A stretch of 32,272 nucleotides of DNA from Saprospiraceae bacterium (GTDB lineage Bacteria; Bacteroidota; Bacteroidia; Chitinophagales; Saprospiraceae): assembly GCA_027011385.1 (NCBI GenBank), contig JALVAD010000183.1:1-32272 (forward strand). The letters run 5' to 3'. Below are positions 7,141 to 32,139 of the stretch, in pieces. The notes under the pieces were generated by a model that worked only from the letters and a program-made list of their open reading frames with translations, made no database searches and had not been told where the DNA came from. Each line of letters starts with the position of its first letter. Position 1 is the stretch's first letter. Position numbers and translations under genes: made by a program.

Positions 7141-7191
7141 CAAATTAACGTTGTTTCTTTCAATTTACGGTTTAAATATTATCTGAAAGGG
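7141..7191 (-). promoter_or_regulatory. Degenerate copy of the PUL promoter motif upstream of the double-sulfatase operon
   Basis: CAAATTAA (7141-7148), 20-nt spacer, ggtttaaatattatc-tg-aaagggtat, resembling ggcataataataatc-nn-aaaaggttt of the two better copies. Confidence 0.35.
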
Positions 7192-7326
7192 TATAATAAT
7201 CGTTTGCTATGTTAGTATTGCTACTAAAAGTTATAATTTTAGCAATTTTATTTGATACAAATTTATTACTATTTTTGTAAATACACAAGTTGATTATTTC
7301 GGGTTAAAGCCCAATTTATACCTGAT

Positions 7327-13800: not shown

Positions 13801-14032
13801 AACCGATGTATGATATTTTAATACGTTCGGTCTTAGTGGGAACTTCAAGGCTGAATTTTCCATCCATATCTGTTATTATCCCTTTGTTTAAATTAGGTAT
13901 AACAACAGATGCTCCAATCAATGGTTCTTTAGTAGATTTATCTATTACTTGACCTTTTACTGTTCTCTGTGCATAGGTAAAAGAAAGAGATAGAAAAAAA
14001 ATCGAAATAAGAAAAAGTAGTTTTGTTTTCAT
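10868..14032 (-). CDS. SusC/RagA family TonB-linked outer membrane receptor
   Basis: RTVKGQVIDKSTKEPLIGASVVI carboxypeptidase-regulatory-like domain, DEVVVVGYGKLKKRDLTGSVS TonB-box/plug, VRIRGINSLRGNNEPLYVIDGV, ILKDASATAIYGSRGANGVVLITTKSG, C-terminal FLFGINLSF. Confidence 0.97.
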   Translation of the reverse strand: MKTKLLFLISIFFLSLSFTYAQRTVKGQVIDKSTKEPLIGASVVIPNLNKGIITDMDGKFSLEVPTKTERIKISYIGYQTKIVKLDPNKEDYLIKLVSGKVLDEVVVVGYGKLKKRDLTGSVSKLVEDPKTARQYSGVDELLQGRVSGVNVTSNAGSPNGAVSVRIRGINSLRGNNEPLYVIDGVIISTAGEDVLEATPDANEMQTAQNGLTGLNPRDIKSIEILKDASATAIYGSRGANGVVLITTKSGSKTGGKPKINAYASSTMTSITKKIDMLDPLSFAKYQNDALIADGNNPKYVVEGDNIYSILEYSDTNVVKSPDAAKKVDWQDEIYQQGISYNTGFSFGGKKNKTGYYFSAGFNNINGIVETTNLKKGDIRLNLNSRLNSKLTFDNRVALTYQEGSFAQAGSRSGGSRSFTKQVLTYRPLIDKLEEDVDLEISNPYSWLTDFDDLIKELRANLSTSFNYEIIKDLKYTIRGGVDYRFKNRNKWYGTEIFKGAKVNGLADYSTLNRKSYTLDNIINYNTKINKKHRINMMAAVTYDGVISSNDVFEITDFPIQTLRSKAPQLGQLITQPRALLNRDEAIFSTLGRVNYSYRNKYILTASFRADKSSKFTKGQQWGYFPSASFAWRLGEEKFLKKLNWFYNLKLRLGWGITGNQGIRPYQTLSTYSTVYYVDSRDNTVIGSVPSRIANPDLTWESTEQYNSGLDISVLSGKLNFIIDAYYKRTKNLLQNISLPTSTGFAKMTVNRGEIENKGIELSMDADLFHKNDLNFSMGGHISFNKNKVISLGLPASTVWIDGQERQESFYFGNNISTGGYFKAPANIFMEGQPIGMFWGYKTDGVYKSQEEADASPTYKGNSNKAGDLVFVDVNGDGNINDDDRTFIGNPNPDFTYGFDVVAKYKRFTVKALFDGVYGNDIANGYNLEVGFAEGRFKNVLSSAYENAWSEDHPNNTGPRLNYDIMNQGFVDLVVEDGSYFRLNILTLSYDLPVKTSYLDNVNIYVSGRNLFYITKYSGYEPQITSFLGDGTIIGVDWVGTPNVRSFLFGINLSF

Positions 14033-14148: not shown

Positions 14149-14216
14149 CAAATTAACAATTATAATTATTAATATATGGCATAATAATAATCATAAAAGG
14201 TTTGTTTATTGTCAAA
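14149..14216 (-). promoter_or_regulatory. Candidate susC promoter: -7-like TTAATTTG plus 39-bp upstream motif
   Basis: Plus strand: CAAATTAA (14149-14156)-N21-ggcataataataatcataaaaggtttgtttattgtcaaa (14178-14216). Same arrangement at 29180-29247. Confidence 0.6.
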
Positions 14217-14271: not shown

Positions 14272-16920
14272 CTATTTCCCTTTGACAAATCTGTATAGGA
14301 ATACTTGATTTTTTAATTGGAGTTTTACTATATAGAATCCAATTGGCATAAAGCCGATGCTCAAATTTATTTTCTTGTTTTTATAAGATCTATTTAATAT
14401 TGATTGCCCGGAATAATTGTAGATTGAAACACCGTAAATCATTTCACTTTCAGAAATGATATTGATATTAGACTCAACAGGGTTTGGAAATATTTTTATA
14501 TCGGCTAAATTTTTACTAATAGTACCGGTAGTTGGTGTCACGACTATACTAAAAGAACAAGAGTCTTTATTCGAGTTATTATCTATCGCTGTCCAAATAA
14601 ATACTGTCGTGTCTATTGGCAGTTGAACATTGTCAAGAGTTTCTTTTTCGTTGAGATTATTTCTAATACCGGAAATATCGCAATTATCGGTCACTTTTAC
14701 AGGGTCAAACTCTGTACCTTTGACGGTATATGATAATTGTCCTTGTGTTAGTTCAATTGTTTTTGAATTGATACATTCTATAATTGGTTTAACCGTGTCT
14801 ATCACTTCTATATTGAAACTAACATCAGAATGATTTCCTGATTTATCTGTTACGATCAATTTAATGTTATTTATTGCTCCGGAAATAATATTGCCTTCTT
14901 CAGGAATTTGAATGATGGTCAAACTATCATCACAATTATCTGTAGCAGTTACATACTTTGTGAAATCAATTAACGCCACTTCACATTCTTCATTAGCGTA
15001 TAATTGTTGGTCGGGGTGTGATGAGTTGATAATTGGTGCTTCACTTTCCAATGAGAATTGCACTATATCACTTGTTTTATTATTTTGGTTATTTGAAACA
15101 ATACATCTGAATTTTGCATTATTGACTTCCTTTATTGCGATAAAAACTAAATTTGCAGATTTACTTCCTTCAAATAAAGAATCATCGGAGATATCTGTCC
15201 ATTCATTTTGATTATACTTTAAAATCTGCCATTTGTATGCTGTGATATTATCACCTGTTATAGTATATTTCACTTCATTTTCATAGCAAATATCCAATTG
15301 GTTTTCCGGTTGTAGTGTTATGGTTAGGGGGCGATTTATCTCGCCACAATTGCATTTTTGAACGGGTTTGTTTTGTAAATATCTAATTTTTGCAGGAATA
15401 GTTCCTGTATTTAATTGAAATACCGGACCGATGCTGGGCCACATATTATTTCCAAAAAAGGAGGGCTTTTCATCCAAATAAAATGAGCTGGCAAGATTTG
15501 AACTGTAATCGGGATCAAAAGATATAGTGCCATTTACATTATTTCCATTCACAATGGTGCCTTGGACATCATCTTGGATTCTGATAATTGTATTTCCTCC
15601 CGTCAATTCATTTCCAATTACATTTTGATTGTGCGAACTAAACTTTAAATGGAGATTGGATTGTTCTACTCTGTTTCTGAAAAATGTAACACCTGCACCA
15701 ACAGGTCCCCACCAATCAGAACTTGTAATCTCTTGAACTATATTACCTTCAAATAGTTCCATATATGCGTAATGACCGTGAAGTGAAATGTCGGGGGGTA
15801 TATCAGAAGGATCTCCATTGGCTTCTGCCCATAAAGGATTGATTGAATAGTTATAAGCAAAAACATTTCCACTAGAGCCGAGATGAGAAAGCATAGAATG
15901 ACGAAGAGAATCAAATACGTTGTTCTCGATAAGACAATTTCCGGATTGACTACTCAATGCAATACCATATCCTCTACCTCCATTATAACTATATGATTTA
16001 TGGAAATAACTATTCCTAACTTCAATATTACAGCTTTGGTGAATGGTCACTTGATGATATTTTGTCAATTCTGACTCAATCCCACAGATCCAACAATTGG
16101 CAGCATTTTTGAAGAAAAATGACGAACCGTCCATATTGGGATTATTCGCTTTTATATAAAAATTCTCAAATCCTACATTTTCAATTAATCCAAAACTTCT
16201 CGCTTTGATATATCCGTTTCCATTATCATCATCAAAGTCTATTCTCAAAGGTCTGTCCAGATGTATTTTATCTCCCTCAATAGAAATCACTCTTGCAATC
16301 ATACCAATAGCGTCTTTGCTCCAAGATTTTGCCCATTCTTCAGGAAAGAGAGATAATATATTTTTCTGAACTATGTGTATATGTTTACCTACTTCAAATT
16401 TGGATGCATCTGCAACATTTACAACAGTCGAACCTTTGTTATATCCTCCGGTAATTGCCGTAAATGAACCATAATCATATTTAAGAATACTAAATAAATC
16501 TTCATTGGAATTTGATATGAATATAGTCGAATCCGAAGATATACCTCTGATTATCCTACCTGAGACCATATTTATTTTTGAATTAAATACATAAGTGCCT
16601 GCCGGAAAATAAAAAACACAGGGAGAGGGATAAGAATTAATATCATCGATTAAACTTTGAAGATTTTTTGAATTGTCTGACTGCCCATCTCCATTGAGAG
16701 CGGGTGTGGCTTCCAATACATTGTAAATCGCAGTTGGACAAGTTACAGCGGTAGAATCCAATCCGGCAATACTCCAATCTACAATTCTTGAATCCGGCAA
16801 ATCATTTTTGACAAGGGGAGCATTTTGTGAGTTATAAGATTTTATTATGATATTGCTCTGAGAATAAATCACTGATATCATCCGGGTAGAAATTACCATA
16901 ATAAAAAATATGCTTTTCAT
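14272..16920 (-). CDS. Secreted pectate-lyase-superfamily beta-helix protein with Ig/HYR-like modules and type IX secretion sorting domain
   Basis: NGDGQSDNSKNLQSLIDDINSYPSPCVFYFPAGTYVF (Pectate_lyase_3-like start), beta-helix repeats, VTATDNCDDSLT and VTDNCDISGI HYR-like blocks, C-terminal IFPNPVESNINIISES...SIYNYSGQSIL...GFYIVKLQLKNQVFLYRFVKGK (T9SS type A-like). Confidence 0.85.
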   Translation of the reverse strand: MKSIFFIMVISTRMISVIYSQSNIIIKSYNSQNAPLVKNDLPDSRIVDWSIAGLDSTAVTCPTAIYNVLEATPALNGDGQSDNSKNLQSLIDDINSYPSPCVFYFPAGTYVFNSKINMVSGRIIRGISSDSTIFISNSNEDLFSILKYDYGSFTAITGGYNKGSTVVNVADASKFEVGKHIHIVQKNILSLFPEEWAKSWSKDAIGMIARVISIEGDKIHLDRPLRIDFDDDNGNGYIKARSFGLIENVGFENFYIKANNPNMDGSSFFFKNAANCWICGIESELTKYHQVTIHQSCNIEVRNSYFHKSYSYNGGRGYGIALSSQSGNCLIENNVFDSLRHSMLSHLGSSGNVFAYNYSINPLWAEANGDPSDIPPDISLHGHYAYMELFEGNIVQEITSSDWWGPVGAGVTFFRNRVEQSNLHLKFSSHNQNVIGNELTGGNTIIRIQDDVQGTIVNGNNVNGTISFDPDYSSNLASSFYLDEKPSFFGNNMWPSIGPVFQLNTGTIPAKIRYLQNKPVQKCNCGEINRPLTITLQPENQLDICYENEVKYTITGDNITAYKWQILKYNQNEWTDISDDSLFEGSKSANLVFIAIKEVNNAKFRCIVSNNQNNKTSDIVQFSLESEAPIINSSHPDQQLYANEECEVALIDFTKYVTATDNCDDSLTIIQIPEEGNIISGAINNIKLIVTDKSGNHSDVSFNIEVIDTVKPIIECINSKTIELTQGQLSYTVKGTEFDPVKVTDNCDISGIRNNLNEKETLDNVQLPIDTTVFIWTAIDNNSNKDSCSFSIVVTPTTGTISKNLADIKIFPNPVESNINIISESEMIYGVSIYNYSGQSILNRSYKNKKINLSIGFMPIGFYIVKLQLKNQVFLYRFVKGK

Positions 16921-16979
16921 CCTTATATATTTATTGTAAGATATAATTTATTTAAAACCGATAAACTCAGAGCAAAATC

Positions 16980-18449
16980 CTATTTTTTCTCAAACTTTTT
17001 GAAAAAATCCTTTGCTGTTTTCCTGAAATTTGAAGCTGTTTTTAAGTATTTATTATCAGAAATCAGATTCTTTGTTTCCAAAGGATCTACATTATAATCA
17101 TAGAGTTCTTCCGCATCTACAAGGGAATCATCAAAATGCTTTTCCGAATTAAAGTGATTTTTAACCCAAATCACATACCGGTATCTTTCATCCCTGAATG
17201 CATAGCCCATTTTGTTGCCTTCCCTTGGAAACTGACTCACAGCATAATCTTTGATTTTTTGTACTTTCCCTTCAATAAGGGGAACAAGGCTTTTGCCGTC
17301 AAGGTCTTGAGGCGTTTTGATTCCCGATAAATCACAAAGAGTAGGATATACGTCCACAAATTCTGTAGGAGAATCGGTTGAACCTGTTTTGCCCTTGAAA
17401 GTGGAAAAAATCAAAGGGGAACGTGTAGCTTGCTCGTAATTGGTATGCTTGCAAAACATATCGTGATCTCCAAGATGCCAACCGTGGTCACCCCAAAGGA
17501 CAATTACCGTACTTTTGCGCAATCCCAGTTTGTCCAATTCGTCCAAAACTCTACCTATCTGCTGATCTATGAACGATACACAAGCATAATAACCGTGAAT
17601 CAGATTTAGCTGTTTTTGTACAGGAATTTCTACATTATAATCCTTTGGGATATCTGCGTATCCACCTCGCAATTCCCAACTTGGTTGAGTAGCATATCTT
17701 GGTGCGCCAACGGGAGCTTTCCTGTAGGGGGGGAGTTTGATATCCTCATCGCTGTACAAATCCCAATATTTTTGAGGGACTACAAAGGGTAGATGAGGTT
17801 TGTAAAATCCAACAGCCATAAAAAAGGGTTTATCTTCTTTTGCAAATTTCTTAAGGTACTTAACACTGCGCCTTACTACTTCTCCATCAGCTGTCATACT
17901 ATCGGGAACATTTGTTATTTCCATCGAAGCCCTTTCCTTGGATTTGACATATTCCTTTCCAATATCCGAATGATGCTTGAAATTGTCGTATTTGTAACTC
18001 CAAGAGAGTGAATCATTCAATTCATCGACCGATCTAAAGTCAAATATTTTACCAACAGCAGCTGTCTGATATCCCAATTGTTTGAAGTATTGAGGCATAG
18101 TGATAATATCAGGATTTTTATCCCTTATCAATGTTTTTAAATCCCAAATTTTGGTATAATCAGGCCTTTTCCCTGTCAAAATACTCGCTCTTGACGGACC
18201 GCAAACCGCTTGTTGGCAATGATTGTTTTTAAAAACATAACCCTGTGAAGCCAATTTGTCAATATTCGGTGTTTTTATTAAAGGAGTACCGTAGCATCCT
18301 AACAATGGTTTCAAATCATCAACCGCTATAAACAGGATGTTTTTAGGTTTATCTTCGGTCTTTTTGCCCGTTTCATTTGTTTTTGAATTGAATTGGCAAG
18401 CAGTACTTCCCAAGATTGTAAAAAGAGCAAGGAATAAAAGATTTTTCAT
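16980..18449 (-). CDS. Iduronate-2-sulfatase-like sulfatase (S1 family), lipoprotein
   Basis: KNILFIAVDDLKPLLGCYGTPLIKTPNIDKLASQGYVF...CQQAVCGPSRASILTGKRPDYTKIWDLKT; clear paralogue of the N-terminal domain of 3858-7058; LGSTACQ lipobox. Confidence 0.94.
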   Translation of the reverse strand: MKNLLFLALFTILGSTACQFNSKTNETGKKTEDKPKNILFIAVDDLKPLLGCYGTPLIKTPNIDKLASQGYVFKNNHCQQAVCGPSRASILTGKRPDYTKIWDLKTLIRDKNPDIITMPQYFKQLGYQTAAVGKIFDFRSVDELNDSLSWSYKYDNFKHHSDIGKEYVKSKERASMEITNVPDSMTADGEVVRRSVKYLKKFAKEDKPFFMAVGFYKPHLPFVVPQKYWDLYSDEDIKLPPYRKAPVGAPRYATQPSWELRGGYADIPKDYNVEIPVQKQLNLIHGYYACVSFIDQQIGRVLDELDKLGLRKSTVIVLWGDHGWHLGDHDMFCKHTNYEQATRSPLIFSTFKGKTGSTDSPTEFVDVYPTLCDLSGIKTPQDLDGKSLVPLIEGKVQKIKDYAVSQFPREGNKMGYAFRDERYRYVIWVKNHFNSEKHFDDSLVDAEELYDYNVDPLETKNLISDNKYLKTASNFRKTAKDFFKKFEKK

Positions 18450-18461
18450 TTTATAAAAATT

Positions 18462-19433
18462 TTATTTTTGTATTTCAATACTGTATTTCATTTTAAAAAT
18501 TTTTCCGGAATCCAATGATTGAATCCCGGTTTTTTCTGTTATTTCCCCGGATGAATTGACATAATCGGATATACCGTACCAAGGCTCAATGCATACAAAC
18601 GGCTCATCTTTTTTCACAAAAGTCCAAATACCCAGATATGGAAATTTATCAATTTCTTTGATTCGTATCCCCCTTTTTGATTTTTTGTTTCTAATTATCA
18701 ATGCTTCTGATTTCAATCCCTTTAGAATGATCACTCTATCCCTGAATAAATCGTGGCTGAGAGATAGAATATTACCACCGCCAAGATAATTGCGGAGCAA
18801 ACTATCAGTCGGATATCCTTTTGGCTTGGAAAGTACGATACGATCGGCAACTTCTGTTGTGTCAAACTCAATGAAGTAGTCTTCAAATTTTTCATTAGGA
18901 ACAAAGGGGATATTGAAACCCGGATGTGCTCCGATAGAGAAAAATATCTTCTTTGTATCAATATTTTCGACTTTATCGGTAACCTTGAGTTCATTGCCCT
19001 CCAAGGAATAACATACGGTCAATCTGAATTTAAAAGGATATATTTTTAATGTTGAGGGATTACTTTCCAAGACTAAGACTAATTTTGAGGGAGATTGTTC
19101 TGATATTTTAAATATTTTACGGGAAGCAAAGCCGTGATTTTTCATTTTGTATTTTTTGCCGGCTATTTTGTAAAATCCTCCTTTGATTTTTCCGACAAAA
19201 GGGAACAATATAGGAGAGTGTTTCTGCCAAGATTCATTACTTCCTTGCCATATGTATTCGATACTATCAGTATTATCAAATAATGAAATTATTTCAGCAC
19301 CTTTTAAAGCTATTTTTGCTCTTAAATGGTTGTTGTAAATTTCTAATGTGTCACTTTGAGCATTGATTGAACCAGATATTGTTAACAAGCACAATAATAA
19401 TATAAATAAATATTTGTGTTTATTATTTTTCAT
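18462..19433 (-). CDS. Aldose-1-epimerase-like (mutarotase fold) protein with N-terminal signal peptide
   Basis: SDTLEIYNNHLRAKIALKGAEIISLFDN...WQKHSPILFPFVGKIKGGFYKIAGKKYKMKNHGFASRKIF...FFSIGAHPGFNIPF; preceded by hydrophobic YLFILLLCLLTISGSINAQ. Confidence 0.85.
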   Translation of the reverse strand: MKNNKHKYLFILLLCLLTISGSINAQSDTLEIYNNHLRAKIALKGAEIISLFDNTDSIEYIWQGSNESWQKHSPILFPFVGKIKGGFYKIAGKKYKMKNHGFASRKIFKISEQSPSKLVLVLESNPSTLKIYPFKFRLTVCYSLEGNELKVTDKVENIDTKKIFFSIGAHPGFNIPFVPNEKFEDYFIEFDTTEVADRIVLSKPKGYPTDSLLRNYLGGGNILSLSHDLFRDRVIILKGLKSEALIIRNKKSKRGIRIKEIDKFPYLGIWTFVKKDEPFVCIEPWYGISDYVNSSGEITEKTGIQSLDSGKIFKMKYSIEIQK

Positions 19434-19435
19434 TA

Positions 19436-21028
19436 TTAATTATTAATTACTTTCATCGTATCTAATTTATATTTAATGACTTTTATACTATAAGGAGTGA
19501 TGTTGATCTCCTTTGAAGAAGCATTAGACATAACTTCTACCCTCGGAGGAACACTTTTAACAGGTTTTAAAGATTTTCGGTCTAAAATATATTGATTATT
19601 AGAATAAGTTATTACTTCGAAAATATTTCGCAATTCTGTTTTTGGGAATGAAATATCAATATTAACACTTTGTTTTTTTGAGCCATTTATGAGCATAACA
19701 CTGACTTCATTATTTTCGATTGTGGTATAAACTCGAATAAAATCAGGAGCGTTAATTTGATTTTTCACCATAGTATTTCCCATAAATTTGCTCCATAGAT
19801 ACATAGCCCAATATTGGCTTCTCGGATTCATTTTTTTATCCTTCGGGTTAAAAAGTCCGTGTCCACCCGTATCGGTAGTCGAAAATAAGTCCCATTGTAT
19901 AGCGATATCTACCCCTGCTTTTGCCATTTCACCCAACATTACCGCTGACCAAAGAGTATTTGTCAAGTCGATTGTAGTATTATCTTCTTTGACTTTGATA
20001 TTCCACTCGGTCACGGCTATTTCAATTTTGTCTTTTTTATAAGGTCTGTACTGAGCCAACCAAGATTTTATTCTTTTTACGGCATCATTAACCTTGACTG
20101 CCTCATTGACCATTTTAACAAAATCAGTATCCTTATTATTAGAGGGATATGCGTGAAAGGAAATAAAATCTATTGGTGCATCTTTATCGCGGATAAGCTC
20201 TTCGATAAATTTTAATTTCATACTTGAAGCGACGCTTCCTCCAACTTTGATTTGTGGATCTGCTTTTTTCATTGCATTTGCAAACAGTTTGTATCGCCTT
20301 ACATATTCTTTTGCATTCATAGTGGTACCATCAGGTAGGGTATAGCCGAGTTCCCAAGAACCGTCCATTTCATTGCCCATTTCCCAATATCTAACATTAA
20401 ATGGTTCTCTAGCGAAATATTGTCTTTGCTTGACCCACTTTACCCATTCTACTGCCATTTTTACTGTTCCTGTACCCATATTTACCGTGACCATTGTCTC
20501 TGCACCAAAAGATTGTATGAATTTATGCAAAAACAGGACATCTGTAAAACCGTGAAAATCCGAAAGATGGTGCTTGGTGTCTTTTATCCTGAAACCCGGT
20601 GCATAACCGGAATAATCCACATCCCATTTTCCCTTCTTGTATTTTGTTGTGTCAAAAGCAACTTCGATTGGGTTTTTACCTTTCTTAATTGCATCTTTCC
20701 ATTCTTTTTCAGGAATATAACTTTCTTCTGATAGTCTGACTTTATTTCCGTTCCAATACAATTCATTTGACCAAGTGCCGCCGGGCATTCTGATGATCCC
20801 GGGATTTAATAGTTTGAGGTTCTCCAACAAATCAAGATTCATCAATGAAGATTCTTCATAAAATACACCTACATTTGTCCCCAAAAGCATTTGTTTATTG
20901 TATTGAGCGATAGTTTTGTTTAAATCTACTGATATATTGTATTGATTGGCTTTATTGCTGAGTTGTTTTGGGCTAGTGCAGCTAAACAAAACCAATATAA
21001 AGGGCAATAAACGTATTATCTTTTTCAT
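19436..21028 (-). CDS. Clan-A glycoside hydrolase, alpha-L-arabinofuranosidase (GH51)-like, lipoprotein
   Basis: NPGIIRMPGGTWSNELYWNG; VRYWEMGNEMDGSWELG (acid/base-type NE); IAVTEWNIK (nucleophile-type E); VLFSCTS lipobox. Exact GH family not resolvable by eye. Confidence 0.7.
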   Translation of the reverse strand: MKKIIRLLPFILVLFSCTSPKQLSNKANQYNISVDLNKTIAQYNKQMLLGTNVGVFYEESSLMNLDLLENLKLLNPGIIRMPGGTWSNELYWNGNKVRLSEESYIPEKEWKDAIKKGKNPIEVAFDTTKYKKGKWDVDYSGYAPGFRIKDTKHHLSDFHGFTDVLFLHKFIQSFGAETMVTVNMGTGTVKMAVEWVKWVKQRQYFAREPFNVRYWEMGNEMDGSWELGYTLPDGTTMNAKEYVRRYKLFANAMKKADPQIKVGGSVASSMKLKFIEELIRDKDAPIDFISFHAYPSNNKDTDFVKMVNEAVKVNDAVKRIKSWLAQYRPYKKDKIEIAVTEWNIKVKEDNTTIDLTNTLWSAVMLGEMAKAGVDIAIQWDLFSTTDTGGHGLFNPKDKKMNPRSQYWAMYLWSKFMGNTMVKNQINAPDFIRVYTTIENNEVSVMLINGSKKQSVNIDISFPKTELRNIFEVITYSNNQYILDRKSLKPVKSVPPRVEVMSNASSKEINITPYSIKVIKYKLDTMKVINN

Positions 21029-21039
21029 TTCAACTAATT

Positions 21040-23448
21040 TTAAATTCCCATAATTACTTTTATATTATGAATTTTATTGTCATTGAATATTGGGACTATG
21101 TTACCATCAATTTGATTGCCATCTACAGTCATTTTGATAACTCCCTTTGAAACTTTATCAGGATTCCGGACAGAAATATTGTATATTGAATCTCTGAATT
21201 TTCTTACAGCTTTAAATCCTTCCCAATTTTTTGGTATACAAGGGTCTATTATTAATCCTGTATGCTGTGGTCTGATCCCCAGTATATATTTGGTTGCTGC
21301 CTGATATACCCAAGAAGAAGTTCCAGACAACCAATGATTTCTTGCTAAGCCAAATTGGGGATGCTCATCACCTAAAATATTTTGAGGATAACAATAAGGG
21401 TCTAATTCATATCTATCAATTATATCGTTTTTAGCAGCAGGATTTATTTGATTGTAATATTGAACAGCTCTATCACCGTTTCCAAGAAGCGTTTCAGCGA
21501 TTATCACCCAAGGATTGGAATGAAGAAAAATACCACCGTTTTCTTTCGCTCCCGGAGGATATGTTGTTACGCCACCAATATTAGGGTCAAAGCCATTATA
21601 TCCGGGATGGCTCAATTTGATACCAAATTCAGTATTCATTATTTTATTTACAGAATCCAATGCGGTTTTAGCCCTATCTAAACTGGCAAATCTTGATAAT
21701 ACACTCCAAGATTGAGCATTTGTGTAGATTTGCCCTTGTTGATTTTGCTTAGAACCAATCGGAGTTCCATCTTCTTCTATATATCTTATATACCATTCTC
21801 CATCCCAACAATTATTGTTGACAATGGATTTCATATGTTCGTAGTCTTTTTTATACTCATTTAATAATTCATCCTGCCCTAAATATGTCAACAGGCTTAT
21901 CATTTTTAGTAATGCTCTACCATAGAGATTTGCGATAAATACACTTTCAGCATCTCCGGGCAAATTGACAGTATCATTCCAATCAGCAAACCCGAGCAAT
22001 GGTAATCCGTGTTTGCCTGTATTATTTTTTGTAAAATCCAAAGCTCTTTTGAGATGTTCAAAAACCGTAGCCTTTTCCCTTTCTTCAAGTTCTAACTCTT
22101 TGTCATAAAAGCTTATTTCTTTATCAAGAAAATCGTAGTCTCCCGTTTCTTTCAAGTAATCACATACAGAAAGAATTATCCATAAATGATCATCTCCATA
22201 ATATTGCTTTTCGCCTTCTTCACGGGAATCGCCCTCATTTGCTTCCATAGTCAAAGGGAAAAATTGATGCATTGCTGAACCATCAGGTTTTTGTACAGAT
22301 AATAGTTTTTCTATCAGTTTTTTCCCTTCGTCAGGTACAGCAGGTAGTATGCCCAATACATCTTGTGAACTATCTCTGAATCCTAATCCTCTTGCTCCTA
22401 AACCAAGTTGGTACAGAGATAAATATCTTGACCAATTCAAGGTAGTATGGCATTGTCTGGGATTATGAATGTTAATCATCGAATTGAATGCAGTGTCAGG
22501 TGTTTCAAAATACATTTTGGATAAATAATCATCCCAAAATTGTGATAATTCATTAAATGCTTTGTTGACATTTATGAAGTCCTTGTATTTTTCAATAGAA
22601 TTATCAATTTTATCCGGTTCTGATTGCCCTAATTGAGTTGCGATACGAACAGTTTCGTTTGGAGTGATAGTCCCCATTTTATGTAAAATTGCAGCAATAT
22701 TATCTCCTCTCCTTGCTTCATAATTTGATAAACTTGGGTTTTGCAATTCAAGAGGATTTTTCCAAGTCCCATATTCATTGTCCCCAAGAAAAAGTTTTCT
22801 ATCTGTTTGAAATGAATCAGCAGGATAATTGGACGTGAAAAAATTGTTTTCATACTCTTTTTTCATAAATGCGTATTGCTTTAGCACAACTGTACCATCG
22901 TCTTTTCTTTCTGCATCAACAGTCATCGTTTGAGGAACCCAATCAGCATTAGTGAATTGCTTGAGTGCATCAAAATGACTGAACTCCACAACCGGAATAA
23001 TATCTATTTCTACATTTTCATCCCTTAAATTTGTCACTTTTATATCCCTGACTACTACATTTGAACCGGTAGGCACAAAAATTGTAACCTCTGTTTTTAT
23101 ATTATAAAATTCTGAAATGATTTTTTGGTATCCTAGCCCTACGTGACACTCATACATGTCGTACCTGTCAAGAGTAGGAACAAAAAATGGTGAAAAAACT
23201 TTATATCCGTCTTTTTCTTTAATCCTTAAATATAAAGTTTCACCCTTGAATTCAGAGTTTGGTAATTGGGGAATATATTTTACGATTCTATTCAATGCCG
23301 GGTCTCCCTTGGTAATAAGTGAGCCGCCCGTATGATCAACGATACCACCAAAAGAAAGTGTGCCGACGTAATTTATCCATTTAACCGGGGTTTTAGGATT
23401 GGTGATTATATATTCTCTGTTCTTATCATCAAAATATCCGTAGTTCAT
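21040..23448 (-). CDS. GH94 glycoside phosphorylase (subtype uncertain; possibly cellobionic-acid-phosphorylase-like)
   Basis: [124 protein letters not shown]. No signal peptide. Confidence 0.88.
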   Translation of the reverse strand: MNYGYFDDKNREYIITNPKTPVKWINYVGTLSFGGIVDHTGGSLITKGDPALNRIVKYIPQLPNSEFKGETLYLRIKEKDGYKVFSPFFVPTLDRYDMYECHVGLGYQKIISEFYNIKTEVTIFVPTGSNVVVRDIKVTNLRDENVEIDIIPVVEFSHFDALKQFTNADWVPQTMTVDAERKDDGTVVLKQYAFMKKEYENNFFTSNYPADSFQTDRKLFLGDNEYGTWKNPLELQNPSLSNYEARRGDNIAAILHKMGTITPNETVRIATQLGQSEPDKIDNSIEKYKDFINVNKAFNELSQFWDDYLSKMYFETPDTAFNSMINIHNPRQCHTTLNWSRYLSLYQLGLGARGLGFRDSSQDVLGILPAVPDEGKKLIEKLLSVQKPDGSAMHQFFPLTMEANEGDSREEGEKQYYGDDHLWIILSVCDYLKETGDYDFLDKEISFYDKELELEEREKATVFEHLKRALDFTKNNTGKHGLPLLGFADWNDTVNLPGDAESVFIANLYGRALLKMISLLTYLGQDELLNEYKKDYEHMKSIVNNNCWDGEWYIRYIEEDGTPIGSKQNQQGQIYTNAQSWSVLSRFASLDRAKTALDSVNKIMNTEFGIKLSHPGYNGFDPNIGGVTTYPPGAKENGGIFLHSNPWVIIAETLLGNGDRAVQYYNQINPAAKNDIIDRYELDPYCYPQNILGDEHPQFGLARNHWLSGTSSWVYQAATKYILGIRPQHTGLIIDPCIPKNWEGFKAVRKFRDSIYNISVRNPDKVSKGVIKMTVDGNQIDGNIVPIFNDNKIHNIKVIMGI

Positions 23449-23460
23449 CTTCTTCTTTTA

Positions 23461-23526
23461 TGTTTCAAGTTCAATGTTTCAAGTTCAATGTTTTAAGTTC
23501 AATGTTTCAAGTTCAATGTTTCAAGC
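23461..23526. repeat. 14-bp tandem repeat (TGTTTCAAGTTCAA), about 4.7 copies
   Basis: tgtttcaagttcaa x2, tgttttaagttcaa, tgtttcaagttcaa, tgtttcaagc, read directly. Confidence 0.97.
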
Positions 23527-23557
23527 TGTAGCGAAAGCGTATTGTGGGATTTTAAGT

Positions 23558-25003
23558 TTATACATTTCCTCTTCTATTTTCCAATTCTGTTCGTATTTCA
23601 TTTGCTTTTTTTGCTGTAATAGGAAAAGATCTTAACAAATACAATGCAATCCCTAATGCAACAACGGGAATAATCAAGAATCCAATTCTCATATTTGTAT
23701 ATACTCCTTCCGCTTGAGTACTTCCCAATTCAGCATCAAATCCTGTTATCTCAAGCAAAGGTCCAGTAATCAAAAAGCCAACCATAAAGCTCAATTTTAA
23801 AATCCAAGAATATATCGAAGAAAAACCTCCTTCACGCCTTTCTCCCGTTTTTAATTCATCGTAATCGACTACATCCGCTTGCATCGACGGTAGCATCAGC
23901 CACAATCCTGCATATCCTGCTCCTATAAAAACCGTATTTAGCAGCATCAACCAAGGATTACTTGGTGTAAAAGTCCACCAAGTTGTTGCATAAGAAATAA
24001 TAGCAAGAGTCATTGATATCGTAAGTACTTTTTTCTTACCGATTTTTTCAGATAAAGAGCGAAAAACAGGGATAAAAATCAGGCTAAAAACCGTATATAT
24101 CACTGTACCATATCCGGCAAATTTCGCTCCTTCTCCCCAGTCGCCTCCAAGAACATAATAGGTGCCGACATAACGACCGTAACCATCAAAAATCGCTTGT
24201 CCCATCAAGAAGAAGATTGTGATTAGACTCAATATAAGAAACGGTCTATTGCTTAAAGTCTCTCTTATACTTGTCCAAAGTTTTATTTGTTTTTGGTTTT
24301 GTACCAAATCACTTTCATAATATCTCTCTTTTAGAAAAATAGCCGGTAATACACCGAGAATAATAATTAAAGCACCGATTATTAAACTTATATATCTCAT
24401 TCCATTTATTGGACTGGCTACTTCAACCCCATCTTTCACTATAAAAAATATTGGTAACATCGACAACCACCATATCCATCCATTTGCAAAACCTGCAATT
24501 GTTTGAAAGTAACTTCTCATTTCTGCAACACGTGTACGCTCATTATAATCCGGCGTCATTTCCATCAAAAGGCTTTGGTAAGGAATACCCCAAATTGTGA
24601 AAAATGTATAAAAAATCACACCGAATCCAATGACCCAAAACATAATTCCAACTTGTGATAAATCGGAGGGAAACCACCAAATAAGGGGGTATAGCAGTCC
24701 TGCCATAATAGCACCTACAAGAATATATGGTCTTCTCCGACCCCATTTTGTACGAGTATTGTCTGATATCCAACCCATAATAGGATCCAATACACCATCC
24801 CATAATCTTAATGACATCAAGATAATAGCGACATAAGTAGGAGGAAGTTTTAGTTCCATATTAAATACTTGATATGCTATACTCACGAGAACCCAAATTC
24901 CTAAAACATCCACCGGACCGGCAGCAGCATAAGCCAATTTGCTTTTAAAAGGCACTTTGTCTTCCGGTGCGATTAGAGGTTTGCGTTCTTCTTTGTTTAG
25001 CAT
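23558..25003 (-). CDS. MFS sugar transporter, GPH (glycoside-pentoside-hexuronide:cation symporter) family
   Basis: KLAYAAAGPVDVLGIWVLVSIAYQVF; LRLWDGVLDPIMGWISDNTRTKWGRRRPYILVGAI; MTPDYNERTRVAEMRSYFQTIAG; about 12 hydrophobic segments. Confidence 0.93.
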   Translation of the reverse strand: MLNKEERKPLIAPEDKVPFKSKLAYAAAGPVDVLGIWVLVSIAYQVFNMELKLPPTYVAIILMSLRLWDGVLDPIMGWISDNTRTKWGRRRPYILVGAIMAGLLYPLIWWFPSDLSQVGIMFWVIGFGVIFYTFFTIWGIPYQSLLMEMTPDYNERTRVAEMRSYFQTIAGFANGWIWWLSMLPIFFIVKDGVEVASPINGMRYISLIIGALIIILGVLPAIFLKERYYESDLVQNQKQIKLWTSIRETLSNRPFLILSLITIFFLMGQAIFDGYGRYVGTYYVLGGDWGEGAKFAGYGTVIYTVFSLIFIPVFRSLSEKIGKKKVLTISMTLAIISYATTWWTFTPSNPWLMLLNTVFIGAGYAGLWLMLPSMQADVVDYDELKTGERREGGFSSIYSWILKLSFMVGFLITGPLLEITGFDAELGSTQAEGVYTNMRIGFLIIPVVALGIALYLLRSFPITAKKANEIRTELENRRGNV

Positions 25004-25036
25004 ATCAATTTTATTTTCTAATAATGATTAATCTAA

Positions 25037-27475
25037 TTATCCGAGTATTACTATAATATCATGTTCTGTTTTTTCTTTAAAAACAGGTAATCTGTTACCG
25101 GATTGTTCTTTTCCATCGACAATGATCTTATTAATTCCTTTGGAGATATGATTTGGGTTTTTGACTTCTATATTGTAAATCGCTCCTCTAAAAACTCTTT
25201 TAATCTTGAATTCTTTCCAAGATCCCGGAATACATGGATCGATAATCAGTGAGTCATAATCCGGTCTGATTCCCAAGATATATTGTGTCACTGCATAATA
25301 ATTCCAAGCAGCCGTACCGGTAAGCCAGGAGTTTTTTGCTTCTCCGGGTTTATAGGCATCTCTACCTGCAATCATTTGTGCATAGACATAAGGTTCTGTT
25401 CTATGTAAATCGCTGATATCCTCCAGATAAGCGGGTGCGATTTTTTTATAATAGTCAAATGCCATTTCACCTCTTCCAATACCAGTTTCTGCAATGATAA
25501 TCCATGGGTTATTGTGGCAAAAAATGGAACCATTTTCTTTATATCCTTCGGGATAAGTGGAGATTTCTCCCATTTCGATATAGTATTTTGTGAAACTTGG
25601 GTTATTTAATATTATTCCATAATCAGTATCCAAATGTTTCTTAACTGAATTTAATGATTTTTTGACAAATCCTTCTTTTTGCCCAATACCGGCCATACTG
25701 CACCACCCATTGGATTCAATGAAAATTTTTCCTTCTTCATTTTCATTGCTTCCAATCTTATTTCCAAAAAAATCATAGGCTCTGAGAAACCATTCACCAT
25801 CCCAACCGTATTTTTTTACGGCTTCTATCATTTTATCTACGTGTTTTTGAGCTCTCTTTGCTTCTTTGTCTTTATTTAAGAATTTACATAGTTCTACATA
25901 TTCCGTACCATAAACAACAAATAGACCGGCAATCATTAAAGATTCTGCTTTAGAGCCTTCTGTTTTATTTTCAGTAGTTTGAAATGATTCATTGGGATCT
26001 TTGGAAAAACAATTGAGATTGAGACAATCATTCCAATCAGCTCTTCCTATCAATGGAAGCTTGTGTGGTCCGAGGTTATCTATTACATGGTCAAATGATA
26101 TTGTCAAATGATCAAATAATGATTTTGCAAGGGCTTTATCATTGTCAAAAGGTACAGATTCATTCAGAATACTGAAATCGCCTGTCTCCTTTAAATATGC
26201 TGTTGTCCCAAAAATTAACCATAATGGGTCATCATTGAATCCGCTTCCTACAGCATCATTTCCTCTTTTTGTCAAGGGTTGGTATTGGTGATAACAACTA
26301 CCATCGGGAAATTGAGTTGAAGCGATATCGATTATTCTTTGTCTAGCTCTATTAGGTGCTTGATGTACAAAACCAACCAAGTCCTGATTTGAATCTCTAA
26401 ACCCCATACCTCGACCTATACCTGACTCAAAATATGATGCACTTCTAGACATATTAAAAGTAATCATGCATTGGTACTGATTCCAGATATTGACCATACG
26501 GTTAAGTTTATCATCATCTGATTCCAATTGGTAAACCGATAGTAAATTGTCCCAATAGTCGGCAAGTTCATTCAATGCTTTATCCACTTTAATATCCGAA
26601 TCATACTTGGCAATCATCTCTTTTGCAGGCATTTTATTGATAATACCTTTTGACTCCCATTTTTCATTTTCCGGTAATTCCACATAACCAAGTAAAAATA
26701 TCAATGATTTTTCTTCCCTGGGCTCTAGTTCTATTTCAAAATAATGCGAAGCTATAGGTGACCATCCGTGTGCTATTGAATTATCAGGTTTCCCCTCCAA
26801 AACATTTTGTGGTTCATTAAATCCATTATAAAGCCCTAAGAATGTCTCACGGTCAGTATCAAATCCGTCATGTTTTTGGTTGACTGAATGAAAAGCGTAA
26901 TGATTTCTCCTTTCTCTAAACTCTGTTTTATGATAAATTACAGAATCTTCAACTTCTACTTGTCCGGTATTAAAATTTCTCTGAAAATTGGTCATGTCGT
27001 CCTCAGCATTCCACAATGCCCATTCAATAAGAGAAAATAATTTGAAAGATTTATTTTTTGTTCCGGTATTCTTCAATTTCACCCTTTGAATCTCACCTGT
27101 GAAATGCAAAGGAACAAAATACAAGACTTCTACATCCAAATTATCTTTTTTACTTTTGATGATGGTATAACTCAAGCCATGTCTGCATTCATAGCTATCA
27201 AGGGGCGTTTTCATAGGTTTCCATCCGGGAGACCAAACCGTATCTCCATCTTTAATGTAGAAATATCTTCCTCCGTCATCTGTCGGTACATTATTATAGC
27301 GGTAACGTGTCAGTCTACGGTACTTTGCATCTTTATAGAATGAATATCCGCCGGAAGTATTGGATATAAGAGAAAAAAAATCGTGATTTCCCAAATAATT
27401 TATCCAAGGGTAGGGAGTCTTGGGATTTGTAATCACATATTCTCTTCTCTTATCATCAAAAAAACCGTATTTCAT
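25037..27475 (-). CDS. GH94 glycoside phosphorylase, cellobiose phosphorylase-like
   Basis: [138 protein letters not shown] closely matches remembered cellobiose phosphorylase sequence. No signal peptide. Confidence 0.93.
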
Positions 27476-27495: not shown

Positions 27496-29163
27496 TTATT
27501 GTTTTTTAAACTCACCAAACTTTCCCGGAAGATTATCGAGATACTTTTTTAATTCATTTTGCAAGTCTTTAACTTTATTCTTGTATTTTGGATTATTGAA
27601 TAGATTATTCTGTTCTTTCGGGTCTGTTCTCAAATCGTATAATTGATCAGTATCGTAATAATGTTTATATCTTTTAGTCGAAGGAAATTCGGCATCGCCT
27701 CCACCCGGTATCAACATAAGATGTGAAAAAGGTAATGAAGGATCGGTAAAATGATATTCCAATTTATTTTTTATTCTAAAGTTATTCCATTTATCCAATA
27801 TTTCCTTACGTTTTTTTAAGTCCCATTTCATTGCATATTCAGGGTATCTAAGAGCGATATATTTGAAACTGTCCTTTAAAATACCACGTGAGAATCCCAT
27901 TTCGAAGTATAGCGATTCTCTGATTTTATCTTTTTTTGCATCTAATATTGGTAAAAAGCTCTTGCCGTCAAATGCTTCGATCTTTTGAGGTTCGCCTCCT
28001 GCCATATCTATGATTGTGGGGGCAAAATCAATGTTTGATACCAATGCTTTATTGACATGTCCTGTCTTGAATCCTCCTTTTTTCCAAATCAAGGAGGGGG
28101 AACTGACCCCACCTTCATATACAGAGCCTTTGGCATGTTGTCCGTGGTCATTGAAGAAAAATATAATGGTATTATCCAGTTTTCCTTGCTCTTCAAGCTT
28201 GTCCATCAATGCACCAAGAGCATCATCAATCCACAGAGTATTGCCCAATGCATCGGGAACTTTTTCTCCTTCTTTTACCAATCCTGATTCGATCAATCTT
28301 TTTGGTATTGTTTCTTTTGGAGGTAAGCAAGTAGGGGCTTTATCCAATATCCCTTCAGCAGTGACTCTTCTGTCTCCAAACCATGATTGTTCTGCATTAG
28401 ATGGTCCGTGTGGTACTGTGGTTGCATAATAAAGGAATATAGGTTTATCCGGTGTTTTGTTGAGGAAATCCAATGCATTATCAGTAATCCAATCCAGATT
28501 TTGAACTCTCAATTTTTCAGGACCGAGATAGCTTGGATTATCTTGATAAAGACCACCGGAATAATTGAAACCGCATTTTTTAAGTTGTGCGCTTATAATT
28601 TTAGCATTATTCTTCAATACTTTGACTGCTTCAGGAGTGGTTGGATCTGTATCCAATGGAAGTTTTTTCCATCCTGGGGCTTCAACTGCGTGATTTTTTC
28701 CATAAAATCCTGTTGTATATCCCAGGTCTTTCATATAAGTTCCGATAGTTGGTTGTCCCGGTACAATATAGGAATTCCATTGTACAGCAGTTTGTCCATC
28801 CATTTTATTTGTAAAATCGGTCATATACTTACTCTTGGCTCTACTTGCATATTGACCTGTAAGGCAGCCATATCTACTGGGAGTACATACAGCGGAACTA
28901 ACATATTGATTTAGCATCAATACTCCTTCATTTGCCAATTTATCCAGATGAGGCGATAGGTTTTTACCTTTTCCTTCTTTCAGGCAATTGAACATATATC
29001 TTTCCATATCATCAGCTATGAAAAATACGATATTCGGTTTATCAGCCTTAACTTCCTTTTTTGAAATATCTGCTTTGTCTTGTTCTTTGTCTTTACAAGA
29101 TGTGAAAATAATTGTACCTGCAATTGTGATAATTGATACAAAAAATACTATTGTTTTTTTCAT
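27496..29163 (-). CDS. Sulfatase (arylsulfatase-type, S1 family), lipoprotein
   Basis: PNIVFFIADDMERYMFN...LSPHLDKLANEGVLMLNQYVSSAVCTPSRYGCLTGQYASRA; start set at MKKTIVFF (29163) rather than the track's 29190, which overlaps the proposed -7 element. Confidence 0.93.
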   Translation of the reverse strand: MKKTIVFFVSIITIAGTIIFTSCKDKEQDKADISKKEVKADKPNIVFFIADDMERYMFNCLKEGKGKNLSPHLDKLANEGVLMLNQYVSSAVCTPSRYGCLTGQYASRAKSKYMTDFTNKMDGQTAVQWNSYIVPGQPTIGTYMKDLGYTTGFYGKNHAVEAPGWKKLPLDTDPTTPEAVKVLKNNAKIISAQLKKCGFNYSGGLYQDNPSYLGPEKLRVQNLDWITDNALDFLNKTPDKPIFLYYATTVPHGPSNAEQSWFGDRRVTAEGILDKAPTCLPPKETIPKRLIESGLVKEGEKVPDALGNTLWIDDALGALMDKLEEQGKLDNTIIFFFNDHGQHAKGSVYEGGVSSPSLIWKKGGFKTGHVNKALVSNIDFAPTIIDMAGGEPQKIEAFDGKSFLPILDAKKDKIRESLYFEMGFSRGILKDSFKYIALRYPEYAMKWDLKKRKEILDKWNNFRIKNKLEYHFTDPSLPFSHLMLIPGGGDAEFPSTKRYKHYYDTDQLYDLRTDPKEQNNLFNNPKYKNKVKDLQNELKKYLDNLPGKFGEFKKQ

Positions 29164-29179
29164 AATATAAACTTTTGCC

Positions 29180-29247
29180 CAAAGTAACACAATGAAAATG
29201 ATAAATACGGCATAATAATAATCTCAAAAGGTTTAAAAACTGTCAAA
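29180..29247 (-). promoter_or_regulatory. Candidate promoter of the sulfatase-GH94-MFS-GH94-GH operon: -7-like TTACTTTG plus 39-bp upstream motif
   Basis: Plus strand: CAAAGTAA (29180-29187)-N21-ggcataataataatctcaaaaggtttaaaaactgtcaaa (29209-29247); 32/39 identical to 14178-14216 with identical spacing. Confidence 0.6.
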
Positions 29248-29557: not shown

Positions 29558-30133
29558 ATGAGAAAGTATTTTAGTTTTAGTATTTTGATTTTATTAATCG
29601 CAATGTCAGTGATATCTTGTGATAAACAAGATGTAGTGAATATTACAGACGAAGTACCTGAAATCAAGCCCAAAAAGGATACAATATATCAAGACGCCTT
29701 ATTGATGAGTTCCGGTAAAATAATATTTGACAGTGCATTTATTCAAACTGTTTATACTGAGGGTAGTACGATTGACAATTATTCACTTACTGTAAATTCA
29801 AGTTTGATCAATTCTGGAGGTTATTTGTTTTTAGCAGCTTTCAGTCCCACCGGTACAACTGTGTTAAAAGAAGGAGTTTATAACGGATTGGCTTCTGTCA
29901 CGCTTTCTAAGAATGGTATAGATTTATTGGAGGAGTGGATACAGAATGGTGGAGATACTGATAAAATGCCCAATTTGGATTCTGAATTTATTTCGTACAA
30001 TGCTGATAGCCTCAAAATGGTGGTTTATCAGTTGAATTCAGATTTAGCAAAAGTCAAGTTGCAAGGATATTTATTGTTGGATAGTGGTGAAAAAGAGATA
30101 GTACAAGCTGATTTTGATGTGTATTTAAGGTAA
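29558..30133 (+). CDS. Putative lipoprotein of unknown function
   Basis: MRKYFSFSILILLIAMSVISCDKQD: signal peptide with lipobox (VISC); no recognised domain; 13 nt upstream of the sigma factor gene. Confidence 0.75.
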   Translation: MRKYFSFSILILLIAMSVISCDKQDVVNITDEVPEIKPKKDTIYQDALLMSSGKIIFDSAFIQTVYTEGSTIDNYSLTVNSSLINSGGYLFLAAFSPTGTTVLKEGVYNGLASVTLSKNGIDLLEEWIQNGGDTDKMPNLDSEFISYNADSLKMVVYQLNSDLAKVKLQGYLLLDSGEKEIVQADFDVYLR

Positions 30134-30146
30134 TTGTATTTTTTTA

Positions 30147-30725
30147 ATGGAGCAATTGAAAATAAATAGTAAAACGCTTTCTGAAGTTATCAGTAAATGC
30201 AAAAAAGCTGATACTTTAGCGCAAGAAGTCTTATTTAGATTTTTTGCTCCCAAGATATTGACCACTTGTCGCAGATATGAATTGCCTGATTTTGGTGCAG
30301 AGGATATCCTGCACGAAACTTTTATTATTGTTTTTAAGAAAATCAAACAATTTGATGAGTCCAAAGGCACTATTGAAGTATGGATAAGGAGAATTGCTAT
30401 AAACGTAGCATTAAAATTTATGCGAGACAAAAAGATTCAGATAACTGAAAGTGAAGATTATCTGCTAAATTTTACTGAGGTAGAAGATATTTCAGATATC
30501 ACTCAGCTCTCTGTAAGAGCTATTTTGGATATTATTAAAATATTGCCTTTGGGGTATAGAACTGTTTTTAATATGTATCTGATTGAGGGATATACACATG
30601 AGGAAATAGCTAATTATCTCGGTATTAGTACAAGTACATCTATGTCGCAATTATCAAAAGCAAAGAAAATGGTAAAGAATATCTTACAGTCTAAAAATGG
30701 TAAAATCCGAAGTATTAAAATGTAA
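30147..30725 (+). CDS. ECF-type RNA polymerase sigma factor (sigma-70 family)
   Basis: Region 2: DFGAEDILHETFIIVFKKIKQFDESKGTIEVWIRRIAINVALKFMRDKK; region 4: LPLGYRTVFNMYLIEGYTHEEIANYLGISTSTSMSQLSKAKKMVKNIL. Confidence 0.92.
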   Translation: MEQLKINSKTLSEVISKCKKADTLAQEVLFRFFAPKILTTCRRYELPDFGAEDILHETFIIVFKKIKQFDESKGTIEVWIRRIAINVALKFMRDKKIQITESEDYLLNFTEVEDISDITQLSVRAILDIIKILPLGYRTVFNMYLIEGYTHEEIANYLGISTSTSMSQLSKAKKMVKNILQSKNGKIRSIKM

Positions 30726-30729
30726 AAGT

Positions 30730-32139
30730 ATGACAGATAAAGAATTACAAAATATATTAAATGAAAAAATAAATTCCTACGAGTCCGGACTGGACTTGGA
30801 TAAGCATTGGGAGAGTTTATCCTCGGAATTAAAGCGAAATAAAAAGGAGCATAAGTTATTTTATTTAATAGCACTATTGGCTTTTCTTCTTGCAGGTATG
30901 AGCGTGTACGTTTTTAGTGACATTCATAGCTCTTCTGACACAAAATCAAAAAATGATGATTTTGTTAATGTGAATAAAAGCAGGGTAAGCAATAATGATA
31001 GTCAAAGCAAAGATTGGGATAAAAAAGGCAGTAATAATGATAATATTGCTTACCAAAATAATGCAATTAATCCAAATTCTAAAGATACTAAGCCTGATGG
31101 CATTAAGCAAATTGATATCAAGAGAGATGAAATCGCTTTTGTGGGTAATAGATGTACAAGCGCTACAGTTGAAAGTAGAATAAATGACAGCACGAATAGT
31201 ATTAATCAAGTCGATAGCGATAGTCAAAGTGATAACTCCGAAATTAAATATGTGATTAATGATAATAAAGACTTGGTTTATGATAATAGCAAATCTGTAA
31301 AAGCCGGAAATGGAAATATTATGAATATCGAATTGCTCAATAAATTGCATTTTGAATTATCAAAGAATTCACTACATTATGAAATTACCTCTCCTGATTT
31401 TATCCATTTTAATAAATTGAGGAACATGAGCAATCTGTCTATTGTTTTTGGTACAGCAGTGATGATCTCCCCATTGATTCATAAGGCAAAAACTTCTGAA
31501 GCAATATCCTTAAAGAATTTCAGGTCTGTCAATGAAAAACCCTTGGAAACATACCAAATGCAACTGGGGATGAAATTAGCTTTGAGAAAGTATTACCTGT
31601 CAGCCGGCATTTTATATAGTCAAGGATTTAGCAGATTGGACTATACTCAAGAGCTCAAAAAAGAATATTTAGTCAAAAATGCATTACTCGAAGAAAGATA
31701 TTATACCTTGACAAATACAAATGAAAAATTATACGGTGACACCTCTGTTACAGGAAAACAAATAGTTGAAGGCATCTATTTTACAAAATACAAATCAGTC
31801 GATTTATATATCGGCATTGGAAAAAAACTTTGGAGTAATGGATTATATTATTTTAACATAGATGCTGGAATTCTGGCAAATATCAGCAATACAGTCAAAG
31901 GGAAAACTATAGATCAATATGATTTTAATATAACAGATGCGAGTAGTATTTATAAATCTAATGTAGGTCTTGGATTTATATCTAATCTTTCTATAGGCTA
32001 TCATTTAGACGATAGGATTGATATTAGCTTAGGAGCCAGAGGAGTCTATTATTTTAACAATATCAATGTTTCCGGCTATAGATTAAAAACCCATTTGTTC
32101 AGATATGGTTTGGGAGGAAATATAGTGTATAGATTTTGA
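30730..32139 (+). CDS. Putative anti-sigma-like single-pass membrane protein with C-terminal outer-membrane beta-barrel
   Basis: Start reassigned to MTDKELQ (30730), 4 nt after the sigma stop. Charged N-terminus, TM segment LFYLIALLAFLLAGMSVYVF (about 30856-30915), Asn/Asp/Ser-rich linker, C-terminal alternating strands ending LSIGYHLDDRIDISLGARGVYYFNN...HLFRYGLGGNIVYRF (terminal aromatic). Confidence 0.75.
   Translation: MTDKELQNILNEKINSYESGLDLDKHWESLSSELKRNKKEHKLFYLIALLAFLLAGMSVYVFSDIHSSSDTKSKNDDFVNVNKSRVSNNDSQSKDWDKKGSNNDNIAYQNNAINPNSKDTKPDGIKQIDIKRDEIAFVGNRCTSATVESRINDSTNSINQVDSDSQSDNSEIKYVINDNKDLVYDNSKSVKAGNGNIMNIELLNKLHFELSKNSLHYEITSPDFIHFNKLRNMSNLSIVFGTAVMISPLIHKAKTSEAISLKNFRSVNEKPLETYQMQLGMKLALRKYYLSAGILYSQGFSRLDYTQELKKEYLVKNALLEERYYTLTNTNEKLYGDTSVTGKQIVEGIYFTKYKSVDLYIGIGKKLWSNGLYYFNIDAGILANISNTVKGKTIDQYDFNITDASSIYKSNVGLGFISNLSIGYHLDDRIDISLGARGVYYFNNINVSGYRLKTHLFRYGLGGNIVYRF

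Follow-up and report, generated by a model that had tools for sequence, protein, structure and literature searches.

The window, that is, the whole stretch of DNA analysed (32,272 nt), corresponds to the entire contig C183 and is a sulfated-glycan PUL. Followed leftward along the minus strand, the PUL consists of a sulfatase/GH94 operon, followed by susC, susD and a sulfatase gene, and then by a double-sulfatase operon. The degradation operon starts with a sulfatase gene (27496–29163; Pfam PF00884), and the remainder, whose extent (14272–27475) was deduced from the short gaps between genes, codes for a GH94 enzyme (25037–27475), an MFS transporter (23558–25003), a second GH94 enzyme (21040–23448), a GH39-like protein (19436–21028), an aldose epimerase (18462–19433), a further sulfatase (16980–18449) and a pectate-lyase-like protein with a sorting tail (14272–16920). 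That a sulfatase-rich PUL encodes two phosphorylase-type enzymes of GH94 along with an MFS sugar transporter (21040–27475) suggests phosphorolysis of a desulfated oligosaccharide. Genes susC (10868–14032; Plug/CarbopepD_reg_2) and susD (9249–10808; SusD_RagB) come next, and the double-sulfatase operon contains a gene (3858–7058, minus strand) for a 1066-aa protein with two tandem sulfatase domains (two PF00884 stretches), which is also found in another genome of the genus, G002 (L052:9644–12871).

Divergent from the PUL, on the plus strand (29558–32139), there are genes for a lipoprotein, an ECF sigma factor (30147–30725) and a 480-aa protein, possibly an anti-sigma factor, which has a single probable membrane segment and a C-terminus resembling those of outer-membrane proteins. 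Close copies of the ECF factor (94 % identity) and of the 480-aa protein (85 %) occur only in G002, and a comparison of the ECF protein with the genome contigs retrieved, besides that copy, only distant homologs.

A direct-repeat block upstream of the PUL operons

The original prediction described a 39-bp block shared by the sulfatase operon and susC, and re-reading of the window returned the same sequence, strand, coordinates, identity and spacer length. The minus strand reads TTTGACA-N6-AAACCTTTT-NN-GATTATTATTATGCC-N21-TTA(A/C)TTTG at both 29247–29180, upstream of the sulfatase operon, and 14216–14149, upstream of susC. The two blocks are identical in 32 of 39 positions and each lies 21 nt from a −7-like TTANTTTG, but the 21-nt spacers differ in sequence, as do the flanks, so that the similarity ends at the edge of the block. 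The block is present as originally drawn, although its informative extent is slightly different: the core backed by cross-species conservation is TTTGACAAT-N4-A-N-ACC-YTTT-N2-GATNATT, and other species do not keep the terminal GCC.

Two 18-bp half-sites make up the block, arranged head-to-tail with a period of 21 bp; their consensus sequences, TTTGACAATTTTTATACC and TTTGATAATTATTATGCC, are identical in 15 of 18 positions, and the second half-site is less conserved than the first. A lag of 21 scored best among lags 14 to 26 (z = 3.4 against column shuffles, with each promoter family represented by one or two sites), and in one genome of another genus, G109, the repeat is visible by eye, with TGACAAT at positions 3 and 24. 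The predicted operator of the sulfatase/GH94 operon (29209–29247, minus strand), kept by the orthologous operon of G002 (L051:10057), comprises half-site 1 at 29247–29230 (TTTGACAGTTTTTAAACC) and half-site 2 at 29226–29209 (TGAGATTATTATTATGCC), 21 bp apart; that of susCD (14178–14216, minus strand) comprises half-sites at 14216–14199 and 14195–14178. A third, weaker predicted operator is situated upstream of the double-sulfatase operon (7169–7207, minus strand); its first half is degenerate (GCAAACG), and the site is conserved in G002 at L052:9493.

All three operators are followed on the minus strand by a −7-like element: TTACTTTG (29180–29187) for the sulfatase operon and TTAATTTG (14149–14156) for susCD, both at offset 60 from the operator start, and again TTAATTTG (7141–7148), at offset 59, for the double-sulfatase operon. 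Within the genus, T[A/T]nnTTTG was found at offset 58–60 in 16/16 promoter-proximal sites, against a background of 0.0024 per position. These 16 sites were curated from several orthologous groups, are not independent of one another and leave out one strong match (C132:8385, see below). Outside the genus the −7 box is variable (TAnnTTAG, GTTCTTTG), and the distance between operator and box is about equal to that of the genus. By inspection of the sites, no TTTG occupies the expected −33 position, as had been noted in support of an activator-dependent promoter. The absence thus holds, but the conclusion drawn from it is weak when based on the absence alone, because a −33 motif could not be identified in Flavobacterium johnsoniae either (PMC7366714).

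Conservation and distribution of the block

Allowing up to three mismatches, the 26-position core has exactly two copies in the genome of origin (G000; 4.47 Mb, 655 contigs), both in the window, while a reversed-pattern control gave no matches under the same conditions. A stricter, 30-position pattern including GCCRTAT had no matches in 40 relatives, a result explained by the lack of conservation of the terminal GCC.

The alignment of orthologous upstream regions, a check put forward with the original prediction, agreed with it: G002 keeps the block before the orthologous sulfatase gene (TTTGACAATTTTTATACCCTTTTTGATTATTAGTATG) and before susC (TTTGACAATAAACAAACCTTTTATGATTATTATTATA), with −7-like boxes at unchanged offset (TTGATTTG and TAAATTTG, respectively), and G004, also of the genus, keeps block, −7 box and offset before its own susC. 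For the susC pair of G000 and G002, identity was 36/60 in the upstream sequence, 36/37 in the block, 7/23 in the spacer, 7/8 in the −7 box and 105/116 in the leader, indicating that the block, the −7 box and the length of the spacer were retained whereas the sequence of the spacer was lost. Sites from related species are statistically non-independent.

We also scanned genomes with R1, a sequence-only model of the block built from eight sites. Within the window R1 recovered the two main sites (E = 9e-11 and 5e-10), both of which belong to its training set, and the third site at 7207–7169 (E = 4e-4, columns 8–30). Strong sites were present only in G000, G002 and G004, and not in G001 or G003, where the best E values were 0.025 and 0.22. 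Matches outside the training set in the own genome include sites that precede genes for a small secreted protein (C269:2546), a beta-helix protein (C269:7084) and a sulfatase (C23:1597); several weak matches without a −7 box, many of them intragenic, were discarded. Unrelated strong R1 matches were not numerous in this genome-wide scan, another of the checks suggested beforehand. The own genome also holds a near-perfect copy of the operator at C132:8385 (L115:4386–4424), in a convergent intergenic region with neither a −7 box nor a gene downstream of it; this copy may be a relic or decoy.

A candidate hybrid two-component regulator associated with the block

The original prediction saw no evident regulator in the window. 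Indeed, the contig encodes no hybrid two-component system (HTCS) and the candidate lies elsewhere, although the prediction overlooked the ECF sigma factor gene at 30147–30725, which is unlikely to be the regulator. G002 encodes a complete 1303-aa HTCS (Reg_prop, Y_Y_Y, HisKA, HATPase, receiver and HTH_18 domains) that ends ca. 225 bp upstream of the operator of the sulfatase operon. In the own genome an HTCS gene (C257:2801–6754; L081:2801–6754) is directly followed by the block and then by a gene for a secreted beta-helix-type protein, and the same order, with an HTCS of the same type, is found in G004 (C548). The HTH_18 domains of these three proteins are 86–95 % identical to one another, and in G000 only one match to the DNA-binding domain (DBD) reached E ≤ 1e-25. 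Genomes G001 and G003, which have no strong R1 site, likewise contain no close HTCS.

The C257 protein is likewise a complete HTCS, and its phospho-acceptor motifs (HELKTPL, DLIMP and SHIP) are intact. Its sensor is only 54 % identical to those of its congeners, against 86–90 % for its HTH_18 domain. Overall, it shares 62 % identity with the G002 HTCS, compared with 93 % between the first sulfatases of the two PULs, so it may be a paralog, and the true ortholog of the G002 protein may be missing from the 93 %-complete assembly. The C257 HTCS is nevertheless most likely the regulator of the window operators in G000.

A search with the DBD in 150 genomes of the family identified nine further HTCS proteins. 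Overall, an HTCS with a related DBD adjoins the block, or shares a cluster with it, in G002, G004 and four other genera, and outside the genus the block usually precedes susC. The genome-wide best R1 match is located between the HTCS gene and susC in G109 (DBD 76 % identical) and before susC, ca. 4 kb from the HTCS gene, in G019 (75 %). In G082 (68 %), the best match is situated between the HTCS gene and a divergent gene for an FGE-sulfatase (sulfatase-maturation) protein (L143:5249–6472), which links the regulator to sulfatase systems. Sites between the HTCS gene and susC were also found in G050 (72 %; E = 0.004) and, scoring weakly, in G157 (E = 0.36). The operator was not detected near the HTCS gene of G141 (77 %), and no site adjoined the HTCS gene for the two proteins with DBD identities of ≤52 %. 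The motif, its repeat period, its fixed offset and the co-occurrence and adjacency of the HTCS are all read from sequence.

A proposed HTCS operator and the alternatives to it

The block resembles the half-sites I1–I2 of AraC, which are asymmetric, ~17 bp long, directly oriented, about 21 bp apart and located beside the promoter, but it is associated with the Bacteroidota −7 box TAnnTTTG and not with −35 and −10 elements of the E. coli type. It also resembles the predicted HTCS operators of Bacteroides thetaiotaomicron, which are tandem direct repeats averaging 21 bp apart, interpreted as the binding of a dimer to one face of the DNA, and which precede PUL operons including susCD under the control of an HTCS with an AraC-type DNA-binding domain (Ravcheev et al. 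2013, PMC3878776). In contrast to those cases, the regulator here is encoded away from the PUL of the window. The likeness is one of architecture; the half-site TTTGACAAT....A.ACC was derived anew in Saprospiraceae. A comparable regulon is that of BT4663 (HTCS_Hep), for heparin/heparan sulfate in B. thetaiotaomicron, where a single HTCS, acting through a direct-repeat motif, governs susCD together with degradation operons and one distant gene (PMC3878776), although the organism and the enzymes (here many sulfatases and two GH94) are different.

Given its location ca. 1 kb from the sulfatase operator, the ECF sigma factor of the window could instead read the block as a promoter, with a −35-like AAACC, a 16-nt spacer and a −10-like ATGCCRTAT. 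ECF/anti-sigma pairs are common regulators of PULs in Bacteroides (PMC11501099), and the two sites in G000 also share GCCRTAT beyond the block; it was the ECF gene and this shared sequence that led us to favour such a promoter at first. Conservation and co-occurrence led us to reject it: GCCRTAT is absent from the orthologous G002 promoters (TATGTAGAAT and TATACAGAAA), which keep both block and distal −7 box, and in G004 motif and HTCS are present but the best ECF match is just 36 % and there is no homolog of the protein encoded next to the ECF gene. Moreover, the G002 ECF gene is on another contig, near a contig end, and the window SusC lacks an STN signalling domain in Pfam. We thus consider an ECF-type promoter very improbable. 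Still less credible is that the two copies are alike merely through a recent duplication of the upstream region, devoid of regulatory meaning. An identity of 32/39 inside one locus could be so explained, but the comparison across genomes contradicts it, in that the likeness is confined to the block whereas spacer and flanks differ, the susC pair of G000 and G002 retains block and −7 box despite divergence of the spacer, and the block recurs at non-homologous promoters and before susC in other genera.

There is also a small chance, scarcely greater than for the ECF factor, that the block serves an activator of another class. Direct repeats spaced by about 21 bp also serve stand-alone AraC regulators. 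LacI or CRP-like proteins would require palindromes, which the block is not, and the predicted repeats of SusR are 67 or 77 bp apart (PMC3878776), a spacing that does not match the 21-bp period found here. Against this whole group of activators, the gene that repeatedly adjoins the motif is an HTCS, and the DBD has its single match at E ≤ 1e-25 in G000.

We therefore propose, with a probability of about 0.86, that the block serves an AraC-type HTCS as operator, through which the operons for uptake and degradation of a sulfated polysaccharide would be switched on together. This would agree with the core of the original prediction, which the comparative data support: an activator site, set at constant distance from a −7 box of the Bacteroidota type, that co-regulates susCD and degradation operons. 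Binding, activation, phosphorylation, ligand and transcription start sites are what we infer in the following scheme. A glycan fragment in the periplasm would bind the HTCS sensor, the protein would be phosphorylated within itself, and its AraC-type domain would bind the operator as a dimer, the two head-to-tail half-sites of ~18 bp, at 21 bp or two helical turns, presenting one face of the DNA. The operator ends ca. 20 bp upstream of the housekeeping −7 box (TAnnTTTG) and so covers the position of the −33 element; recruitment of the housekeeping RNA polymerase to that box would follow. The putative targets are susCD, the sulfatase/GH94/MFS operon and unlinked sulfatase and beta-helix genes, with the third sulfatase operon as a probable further target.

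A wider and more tentative proposal, which we hold to be possible but less probable than its negation, is that one Saprospiraceae HTCS lineage commands a sulfated-glycan regulon dispersed over several contigs, with some six promoters or more, in which the dimer replaces the −33 contact and the input has been exchanged on a fixed regulon. The distance from operator to −7 box is held within 2 bp in the genus and is similar elsewhere, suggesting that the HTCS dimer, once phosphorylated, itself stands in for the absent −33 contact. The DNA-binding domain and the operators are unchanged although the G000 sensor has diverged (54 %), as if the input had been exchanged on a fixed regulon. Among the papers accessible to us, a search combining Saprospiraceae, PULs and hybrid two-component systems found none, and a further one on HTCS in Flavobacteriia gave the same outcome. 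The operator type is known, and what appears to be new is its instance in Saprospiraceae, which is well supported by the comparison of genomes.

These results provide a predicted operator sequence, a named candidate regulator gene and a predicted regulon for the degradation of sulfated glycans in Saprospiraceae. They would also show that the rule of 21-bp direct repeats in HTCS operators applies outside Bacteroides, and would supplement it with a constant distance to the −7 box. Together these features may make HTCS regulons predictable from sequence in uncultured Bacteroidota.
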